DNA from: Nitrosopumilus sp. b1
GTDB lineage: Archaea > Thermoproteota > Nitrososphaeria > Nitrososphaerales > Nitrosopumilaceae
DNA: 64,000 nt
NCBI RefSeq assembly: GCF_014078545.1
Contig: NZ_MU078723.1
Location: 186,001 to 250,000, forward strand
Direction of reading: 5' to 3'
Position 1 is the stretch's first letter, and the number at the start of each line of letters is the position of its first letter. Both the position numbers and the translations under genes were made by a program. Positions 5,059-7,139 of this stretch are shown here, piece by piece. Under the pieces are notes generated by a model, which did not search any database, had not been told where the DNA came from, and saw only the letters and a program-made list of their open reading frames with translations.

Positions 5059-5250
5059 ATGAATACCAGACTGGAAAGAAAAATAGCAGAATGGAAATTG
5101 GCATTTTATTCAATTAAATATTCTCAAAGTAAAGATGCAAAAATTCTTGCAGAATTAATCGATCTTGCGAAAAATGTATTGCCAATAGCACAAACAACAC
5201 CAAATCCAATAGTTCTGATTACTTCACTTGAAAAACCGGTGAGAAAATGA
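5059..5250 (+). CDS. Small hypothetical protein upstream of methyltransferase
   Basis: A 63-residue protein (MNTRLERKIAEWKLAFYSIK...) made mostly of predicted helix, basic at both ends, with no cysteines. The ATG at 5059 lies directly after the second GGTACC palindrome, implying a leaderless or very short-leader mRNA. Its stop overlaps the methyltransferase start as ATGA (5247-5250), so the two are translationally coupled and probably work together. No family is recognised. Confidence 0.65.
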   Translation: MNTRLERKIAEWKLAFYSIKYSQSKDAKILAELIDLAKNVLPIAQTTPNPIVLITSLEKPVRK

Positions 5251-6290
5251 GTGAGGAAAATTTTGAGAATAGAATGCTAGAGGTCATGAATGATGCCTCT
5301 TTGGCATTAATGCTGTCTGTGGGGCATAGAACAAAGTTGCTTGACAAAATATCTGAGCTTCCTCCATCTACAAGTACAGAAATAGCATCAGCGTCTGGGC
5401 TAAATGAGAGATATGTACGCGAGTGGCTTGGTTCAATGGTCACAGCAAGAATAATCGATTATAATGTGGCAACAACAAAATACTCCCTTTCAAAGCAAAA
5501 AGCCAAGTTTTTGACAAGGAATGGTACGTACAATTTTGCATCATCAATGCAGTTTATTCCAGTTCTGGCATACGTTGAGGATCAAATTGTCGAATGTTTT
5601 GAAAACGGAGGCGGAGTCCCATACGAATCGTTTAACAGGTTTCACGATGTGATGGCAGAAGAAAGTCAGCAAACAGTTCTCTCTGCACTTGTAGATAAGA
5701 TAATTCCAATCATACCAGGATTGCGTGAGAAACTCAGTTCAGGAATTATCGTTTTGGATGTTGGATGTGGAAGTGGAAAGGCAATCAATCTGTTGGCAAA
5801 GACATTTTCAAAATCACAATGTCATGGTTTTGATATTTCCGATGAGACAATACGTATTGCAAAACGCGAATCAAAAAGACTTGGATTGACAAACACAGTA
5901 TTTGAAAAACAAGACGTATCAAAAATTTCAAAAGAGCAACACTATGATCTTATAACGGCATTTGATGCAATACATGATCAGGCGGATCCGGAAAAAGTGT
6001 TGGAAAATATTAGAAAATCTCTAAAACCGGAAGGAGTGTTTTTGATGCAGGATATTAAAGCATCTTCAAAGCTTGAAAACAATATGCATCATTCGTTAGC
6101 ACCATATCTTTTTGCAGTATCATGTCTTCATTGCATGACAGTGTCATTAGCACAGAACGGAAAAGGTCTCGGGGCTATGTGGGGAAAAGAACTTGCTAGT
6201 CAGATGCTAAAAGAGGCAGGGTTTTCTATAGTCGAGATTAAAGAGCTTCCACATGATCCAATCAATTACTATTACATAGCAAGGCCATAG
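5247..6290 (+). CDS. SAM-dependent methyltransferase with N-terminal winged helix (Rv2258c-like)
   Basis: A 347-residue class I methyltransferase. Residues about 10-90 form a winged-helix dimerisation domain (TSTEIASASGLNERYVREWL, then a wing ending in YSLSKQ), and the Rossmann fold begins with motif I VLDVGCGSGKA at about residues 169-179. The acidic loop GFDISDETI binds the SAM ribose and DLITAFDAIHDQADP is motif IV/post-I. This arrangement is typical of small-molecule O- or N-methyltransferases rather than DNA or rRNA enzymes; the substrate is unknown. It is coupled to the upstream 63-residue gene and lies under the GGTACC operator. Confidence 0.8.
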   Translation: MSEENFENRMLEVMNDASLALMLSVGHRTKLLDKISELPPSTSTEIASASGLNERYVREWLGSMVTARIIDYNVATTKYSLSKQKAKFLTRNGTYNFASSMQFIPVLAYVEDQIVECFENGGGVPYESFNRFHDVMAEESQQTVLSALVDKIIPIIPGLREKLSSGIIVLDVGCGSGKAINLLAKTFSKSQCHGFDISDETIRIAKRESKRLGLTNTVFEKQDVSKISKEQHYDLITAFDAIHDQADPEKVLENIRKSLKPEGVFLMQDIKASSKLENNMHHSLAPYLFAVSCLHCMTVSLAQNGKGLGAMWGKELASQMLKEAGFSIVEIKELPHDPINYYYIARP

Positions 6291-6332: not shown

Positions 6333-6731
6333 TCATTGAATAATTGGAAGATTTTTTCCATAGACCTGTCGAAAAGTTCTTGGTTTGTTATCGCAGAATA
6401 CATCATCACAACAAAATTTCATAGAAAATTTTGCCATCTCCTCTAATATTGTGCGCAGTGCTTTTCCTTTTTTGGTTAGTTCGTATTCAATGCGAATTGG
6501 TGTTTCATTATAGATTTTTTTCTCAATAAGATTGCTTTTTTCCATTTCTCGTAGCCTAGATGATAGTGTGTTTGGATTAATTCCTTCAATTGAATTCAAA
6601 AATTCATTGAACCTATGCTGATTTAGCACAATCATGTTTCGTAAAATATGAATGGTGAATTTTTTTCCAATTATTCTAAACGTGTTATCAATGGGATCTC
6701 CCCTACATTCTTCTGGTAGAAAATCTATCAT
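6333..6731 (-). CDS. HxlR-family winged-helix transcriptional regulator
   Basis: From the ATG at 6731 the protein is 132 residues: IDNTFRIIGKKFTIHILRNM (the HxlR helix pair), FNEFLNSIEGINPNTLSSRL (recognition helix), and NETPIRIEYELTKKGKALRT (the wing). HxlR proteins bind promoters as dimers and often respond to oxidants or metals through cysteines. Here there is an N-terminal Cys (PEECRG) and a C-terminal CCDDVFC cluster, which makes redox or metal sensing plausible. The frame is open to a TTG at 6782. It is divergent from the metallothionein-like gene and is its obvious candidate regulator. Confidence 0.8.
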   Translation of the reverse strand: MIDFLPEECRGDPIDNTFRIIGKKFTIHILRNMIVLNQHRFNEFLNSIEGINPNTLSSRLREMEKSNLIEKKIYNETPIRIEYELTKKGKALRTILEEMAKFSMKFCCDDVFCDNKPRTFRQVYGKNLPIIQ

Positions 6732-6824
6732 TCTTGGCAACTTAACAAAACCTAACCTACTATAGTTTTCAACACTTACCAAGTTATTAACTTAACTTTC
6801 TATAGCAACTATGAAAAGATAATT

Positions 6825-6833
6825 GGAGGTGAT
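6825..6833 (+). promoter_or_regulatory. Strong Shine-Dalgarno site of the Cys-rich peptide gene
   Basis: GGAGGTGAT just upstream of the ATG at 6837 is nearly a full complement to the 3' end of archaeal 16S rRNA. Most genes in this window lack such a site, so it supports real, efficient translation of the 25-codon frame that follows. Confidence 0.8.
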
Positions 6834-6836
6834 AAG

Positions 6837-6914
6837 ATGACAGAAAAATGCAGTTGTACATGTAGTTGTAACTGTTCTTGTAACAGCGAAGATTGTGATT
6901 GTAAATGTGAATAA
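6837..6914 (+). CDS. Metallothionein-like cysteine-rich peptide, 25 aa
   Basis: ATG 6837 to TAA 6912-6914 encodes a 25-residue peptide with nine cysteines at positions 5, 7, 9, 11, 13, 15, 20, 22 and 24, all in C-X-C spacing (CSCTCSCNCSCN, then CDCKCE). There are no aromatic or hydrophobic residues. Dense C-X-C repeats are the metal-thiolate signature of metallothioneins, so it probably binds Cu(I), Zn or Cd. A strong ribosome binding site precedes it and a hairpin/T-tract follows 24 bases after the stop. The HxlR regulator is divergent. No family I know has exactly this sequence; it is too short for routine gene callers. Confidence 0.75.
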   Translation: MTEKCSCTCSCNCSCNSEDCDCKCE

Positions 6915-6937
6915 TCACATTTCTTTTTTTATTTCAG

Positions 6938-6960
6938 ACTAAGATTTCCCTTAGTTTTTT
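6938..6960 (+). terminator. Hairpin plus T-tract after the Cys-rich peptide gene
   Basis: ACTAAG (6938-6943) and CTTAGT (6950-6955) form a 6-bp stem with a six-base loop, followed directly by Ts to 6960; a T-rich run also precedes it at 6921-6930. Archaeal termination needs mainly the T-tract, so this should end the peptide transcript before the tRNA on the other strand. Confidence 0.5.
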
Positions 6961-7057
6961 GTAGATTCAAAGTTTGTATCAATTTAGATTCTAAAACACA
7001 GTTACTTGGAAATATTAGATATTATTCAACCTGAAGGGGTTTAACCATAAAGTTTAG

Positions 7058-7139
7058 CGCCAGGTAAGGGATTCGAACCCCTGCACGCTTGCGCGTAGCC
7101 GTTTTCGAGACGGCCGCCTTACCACTTGGCTAACCTGAC
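7058..7139 (-). tRNA. tRNA-Ser(CGA)
   Basis: Read on the minus strand: acceptor GTCAGGT pairs with ACCTGGC, with discriminator G. The D-arm contains AGCCAAGTGGTAAGGC, the anticodon loop is CTCGAAA (anticodon CGA) on a GCCGT/ACGGC stem, a long variable arm (TACGCGCAAGCGTGC region) is present as in class II tRNAs, and the T-arm has GGTTCGAATCC. The long variable arm plus CGA anticodon identify serine. CCA is not encoded and no intron is seen. A 12-base copy of its 3' end occurs at 3628-3639. Confidence 0.95.

Follow-up and report, generated by a model that had tools for sequence, protein, structure and literature searches.

A conserved 25-residue cysteine-rich peptide gene paired with a divergent HxlR regulator in Nitrosopumilus

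A short cysteine-rich gene facing an HxlR regulator

The window analyzed here, a 64-kb stretch of a Nitrosopumilus sp. b1 contig, contains a very small gene for a cysteine-rich peptide that is transcribed divergently from a gene for an HxlR-family regulator. The features of the locus, with positions counted in the window, are:

6333 to 6740, minus strand: divergent HxlR-family winged-helix regulator (PF01638, 3e-22)
6393 to 6413, minus strand: C-terminal CCDDVFC of the regulator (Cys107/108/113 when read from ATG); every member of the clade has the CC pair
6705 to 6707, minus strand: codon for the N-terminal Cys9 of the regulator, four residues before Pro13; present in all six peptide-linked HxlRs
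6784 to 6790, plus strand: TTATTAA, a TATA-like promoter box for the peptide gene, unchanged across the six homologues
6796 to 6818, plus strand: putative HxlR operator, an imperfect inverted repeat CTTTCTATAGCAACTATGAAAAG, common to related promoters between Cys-rich-protein and HxlR genes
6825 to 6833, plus strand: Shine-Dalgarno sequence GGAGGTGAT, of which the part GGAGGTGA is identical in all six homologues
6837 to 6914, plus strand: Cys-rich peptide gene MTEKCSCTCSCNCSCNSEDCDCKCE, 25 aa, with seven Cys invariant among six homologues
6915 to 6933, plus strand: T-rich stretch directly 3´ of the stop codon, with a T-tract at 6920-6933; present in all six
6939 to 6960, plus strand: small hairpin CTAAG-N6-CTTAG (6939-6954) plus a T-run, not conserved

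The peptide starts with ATG and has 25 codons, nine of which (36%) encode Cys. An earlier sequence-only reading had proposed this gene, and its length and Cys content were as claimed. The same reading placed all Cys in C-X-C spacing, which is a slight overstatement: there are two C-X-C runs, from C5 to C15 and from C20 to C24, but the step from C15 to C20 is C-X4-C. The peptide has no aromatic residue and no His (one homologue has a single His). Within the window, this is the one ORF of 20-45 aa with at least eight Cys, whereas first-order Markov sequence matched in composition would give 0.017 per 64 kb. Pfam searches returned no match, at E values up to 1 for the window peptide and up to 10 for its homologues, and no NCBIfam model matched any of the peptides. 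Metallothioneins as a class are short, with at least ~20-30% Cys in C-X-C arrangement and few or no aromatic residues or His, and the peptide has all of these properties. It lies outside every known metallothionein sequence family, while looking metallothionein-like in function.

The ribosome binding site upstream of the peptide ORF, described previously as unusually good, contains GGAGGTGA, a motif that occurs at no other place in the window. The same promoter order recurs at all six loci with little change: TTATTAACTTAACTTT comes first, GGAGGTGA last, and an element resembling CTATAGnnACTAT lies between them. The DNA around these elements is variable. The best match to the operator-like element is 19-21 of 23 positions in the six peptide loci and 17-22 of 23 in 35 loci where an HxlR faces a longer Cys-rich protein, compared to shuffle maxima of 16 and 17. 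Across the whole genome, a site with one mismatch occurs only here; four others have three mismatches each, which is close to the reversed-control level, and no wider regulon was found in this genome. Judging from the position of the TATA-like box, the transcript start would fall inside the operator-like element, which suggests repression. The T-rich stretch after the stop codon is likely an archaeal terminator. Of the hairpin and T-tract that had been noted together, the T-tract is real and has counterparts in all six loci, but the hairpin is found only in the window.

The divergent HxlR gene and its C-terminal CCDDVFC are also as first described. Translation probably begins at the TTG at 6740 (135 aa) rather than at the ATG at 6731 (132 aa), given that this ATG is missing in two homologues and the TTG frame is kept. 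By sequence, the nearest solved structure is that of Bacillus subtilis YodB (5hs7, 4e-15).

Conservation of the pair and its genomic context

When the peptide by itself was searched against six-frame translations, matches appeared in two genomes, adjoining the same HxlR. Inspection of the DNA beside the closest HxlRs revealed six peptides of 25-32 aa, in G000 (the genome of the window), G047, G045, G019, G159, and G205. A DNA pattern consisting of the Shine-Dalgarno sequence, ATG, and three Cys codons in C-X-C register recovered these six and two unrelated matches from 400 genomes of the order. A profile built from the six peptides detected exactly these six of 250 Nitrosopumilaceae genomes at E <1e-6, along with one additional 13-residue match containing a stop (E 0.046), and it found no genome outside Nitrosopumilaceae among 398 sampled from the phylum.

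Conservation of the frame in relatives had been proposed as a check on the gene. All six homologues are in frame, always adjoining an HxlR of the same clade, with seven invariant Cys and with insertions and deletions in multiples of three. TGT and TGC alternate at five of the seven invariant Cys, and the spacer residues vary freely. Together, these patterns point to selection acting on the Cys positions of a peptide that is translated, and we conclude that the ORF at 6837-6914 is a real, conserved gene.

In all six genomes the peptide is encoded head-to-head with the HxlR, and the other five HxlRs are 73-83% identical to that of the window. The six peptide-linked HxlRs and the HxlR of G206 form one branch (support 100/99). 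None of the genes flanking the window pair recurs in the neighborhoods of G047, G045, or G019; G045 and G159 have a neighborhood in common, and G205 has several genes in common with G206, which lacks the peptide. Since the other neighbors differ between most genomes, the pair itself is the unit. The gene adjoining the window pair (5247-6290, plus strand) encodes a methyltransferase (PF21320, PF13847) whose N-terminus is an Rv2258c-like winged helix; it was not found next to the pair in G047, G045, or G019.

The peptide is also dispensable, given that it occurs in only 6 of 250 genomes, is absent by profile search from the sister genome G001 (which also gave no HxlR match at E 0.001), and is missing from G206, where the HxlR and a promoter-like remnant are kept. 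The match between G001 and the window is confined to positions from 7032 onward. The first gene 3´ of the peptide is a tRNA-Ser in antisense orientation (7057-7139). On the left side of this tRNA-Ser(CGA), G001 carries other DNA that starts with a phage-type integrase gene (L145:8636-9895, plus strand). The tRNA-Ser(CGA) is thus an integration hotspot, with an integrase there in G001 and unrelated DNA in the window; a second copy of the tRNA end was not seen in the window. A viral origin of the pair was considered and rejected: a search for related loci in IMG/VR found no relative of the HxlR, and phage records contain only distant HxlRs (at most 39% identity). An exact promoter match in one viral contig adjoins neither an HxlR nor a peptide and was set aside as chance. 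The genome assembly has an estimated 8% contamination, but the locus is not a stray, given the 460-kb length of the window contig and the 95% match of the neighboring tRNA-FEN1 segment to a same-genus genome.

Some of the pairs lie close to copper-related genes. The G045 pair is near ZIP-like, multicopper-oxidase, DtxR-like, and cupredoxin genes, and the G019 pair adjoins a cupredoxin gene. We count this context as weak, since copper-related neighbors are frequent in ammonia-oxidizing archaea, the cases are few, and the context of G045 and G159 is shared by descent. A role in Cu uptake has been proposed for the conserved multicopper oxidases and ZIP permeases of these archaea (PMC7785015).

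Regulator cysteines and the wider HxlR family

HxlR proteins can act as activators as well as repressors. The best comparison for the window regulator is YodB, a repressor that senses quinones via Cys6 and diamide via a Cys6-Cys101´ disulfide (PMC8063818). The window protein has the HxlR winged-helix domain and a C-terminal Cys corresponding to YodB Cys101, but carries Asp where the YodB-type sensing Cys precedes Pro. As its sequence reads, it is an HxlR protein that lacks one defining YodB feature. The C-terminal FCC-DDVFC aligns over YodB FCEPGDTVC, with FCC against the FC at Cys101 and the last Cys against YodB Cys108; this third Cys of CCDDVFC is retained in two of the six peptide-linked HxlRs.

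We scored the Cys pattern of 105 distinct HxlRs, 99 with other partners and six peptide-linked. The residue preceding the conserved Pro is Cys in all 99 of the former but in only two of the latter. Conversely, the combination of Cys at -4 from the Pro and the C-terminal CC pair is found in all six peptide-linked HxlRs and in no others except the orphan of G206. The predicted sensing cysteines thus differ in just the clade carrying the peptide, which could mean that the redox switch has moved or that the cysteines form a metal site.

Related archaeal HxlRs face genes for azoreductase-like flavodoxin-fold (PF02525, 5e-37), thioredoxin (PF00085), glyoxalase-fold (PF00903), and pirin (PF02678) proteins, partners that fit with thiol or electrophile stress. 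These loci (L050, L059, L084, L054, L094, L031, L029, L109, and L127) echo the bacterial YodB/azoR1 pair, and they make this stress response of the archaea directly testable.

At least 35 further loci have an HxlR facing a protein of 108-130 aa with a Cys-rich N-terminus, no Pfam family, and nearly the same operator; examples are L011:1043-1396 and L014:1052-1387 (both minus strand), L032, and L015. This protein family is undescribed. One member has a sub-threshold SEC-C-like motif (0.032), and the helical-looking tail contains a conserved WHKAFF...ERLKKRIE..FGPTMDK. With the query used, the longer protein matched in none of the six peptide genomes, and the peptide may therefore replace it. 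We rejected the idea that the peptide is a simple N-terminal descendant of the longer protein: the promoter designs are alike, but the peptides are too short for homology to be established. Other small Cys-rich ORFs also occur near HxlR genes. A 37-aa peptide with nine Cys, MNCGCGKDDKCVSPDCNCATTGICTCGPSCHCSSNKK, is encoded in one Nitrosopumilaceae genus (L014:2192-2338, minus strand; L052:1145-1258 and L058:1093-1206, plus strand), and a possible ORF, MMNDYTCTCSCGCQNPANDYVCDNCRIGLCKVGMKK, is located at L034:2432-2542 (minus strand); neither has a Pfam match.

A candidate stress cassette and its known counterparts

We suggest, with somewhat better than even confidence, that the locus is a two-gene stress cassette composed of a thiol-based HxlR repressor and a minimal metallothionein-like peptide that acts as a trap. 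What we observed is the gene and its conservation, its pairing with one HxlR clade only, the conservation of promoter elements, the family of the regulator, and the changed Cys pattern; to this the model would add repression, an inducer, a bound ligand, and high expression. The HxlR protein, as a YodB-type thiol repressor, would occupy the inverted repeat overlapping the peptide transcript start, and would be released from the DNA when its cysteines are oxidized, alkylated, or bound by a soft metal such as Cu(I). The short message, with its near-perfect ribosome binding site, would then give rise to much peptide, whose C-X-C thiolates would bind a soft metal (most likely Cu(I), otherwise Zn, Cd, or Hg) or otherwise absorb the stressor. 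Against this model stand the lack of Pfam and NCBIfam matches for the peptides, the rarity of the peptide gene, its absence from G001 and G206, and the capacity of HxlR proteins to activate.

We favor metal binding as the role of the peptide because of its C-X-C spacing and hydrophilic spacers. Copper enzymes underlie the energy metabolism of ammonia-oxidizing archaea, and this dependence, together with the copper-related genes near the pair in G045 and G019, makes copper our favorite guess. When the locus was first read as a metal- or redox-responsive pair, the pairing and the redox or metal flavor were well judged, but metal-responsive is only one of two live readings, since the partners of the related HxlRs point to electrophile or thiol stress. 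More tentatively, and with considerable doubt, these peptides of 25-32 aa may constitute a new class of minimal metallothionein in archaea, served by a dedicated HxlR sensor in which rearrangement of the cysteines (Cys at -4 plus the C-terminal CC pair) would have converted a redox switch to a soft-metal site. Binding of Cu(I), if it occurs, would place the peptide among the smallest encoded metal buffers and would make peptide and regulator together a compact metal or thiol biosensor. No metallothionein-like buffer of ammonia-oxidizing archaea was found in the open literature searched, and publications on metallothionein and archaea, or on HxlR and Thaumarchaeota, held nothing on the window peptide, as judged by titles and abstracts.

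It is rather unlikely, though worth weighing, that the peptide is a thiol or electrophile buffer instead of a metal trap, with a repressor that responds to quinones, aldehydes, or disulfide stress, and a peptide that serves as a sacrificial reductant or nucleophile. The azoreductase, thioredoxin, glyoxalase, and pirin partners of the closest HxlR relatives speak for such a role, as does the sensing of quinones and diamide by YodB (PMC8063818). However, a small genetically encoded thiol pool would be a poor stoichiometric scavenger, the regular C-X-C spacing is that of metal-thiolate clusters, and the canonical redox Cys before Pro is gone in four of the six peptide-linked regulators. The strict pairing and the altered HxlR cysteines of peptide-bearing genomes would also suit a regulatory partner, which exchanges metal with the HxlR cysteines in a feedback loop rather than acting as a bulk trap. 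We consider this improbable, given that the G206 HxlR exists without a peptide and that the peptide spacers are unconserved, unlike those of an interface.

A short ORF rich in Cys codons and followed by a terminator-like T-tract might also be a Cys-sensing leader peptide that attenuates a downstream gene, but this is very improbable: the next downstream gene is the antisense tRNA-Ser rather than a gene on the same strand, downstream genes vary between genomes and are often convergent, and the synonymous TGT/TGC variation indicates selection on Cys positions only. A chance ORF, conceivable for so short a frame in an intergenic stretch, is ruled out by conservation: the six homologues are in frame, codons of their invariant Cys vary synonymously, and the Shine-Dalgarno sequence is conserved. 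The low expected number also speaks against chance.

The cassette we propose resembles several known systems in part. The YodB/QsrR/HypR-type HxlR (DUF24) thiol-switch repressors of Bacillus and Staphylococcus have the fold family PF01638 in common with the window regulator, which also has the counterpart of YodB Cys101 and, as its putative operator, a local imperfect inverted repeat. In addition, YodB binds the azoR1 promoter (PMC8063818), and among the related archaeal HxlRs are some that face azoreductase genes. The window regulator differs in having Asp before the Pro, a Cys four residues earlier than the Pro, and the C-terminal CC pair, and its target is a Cys-rich peptide rather than an enzyme, in an archaeal host. 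The HxlR-divergent proteins of 108-130 aa in Nitrosopumilaceae and relatives have the same divergent layout, nearly the same operator, and a Cys-rich N-terminus, but differ in their helical-looking tail, in the sub-threshold SEC-C-like motif of one member, and in not being found in the six peptide genomes. SmtA/BmtA (PF02069) and mycobacterial MymT are likewise encoded by small, regulator-controlled metallothionein genes and are Cys-rich; compared to these, the window peptide is half the length or less, with no His ligands and no HMM match, and their regulators are not known to belong to the HxlR family. The short copper metallothioneins of fungi, such as that of Neurospora crassa with 25 residues, are of similar size and have similar C-X-C runs, hydrophilic spacers, and no aromatic residues. 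In contrast to these, the window peptide is archaeal, has no detectable homology to them, and comes with an HxlR regulator of its own.
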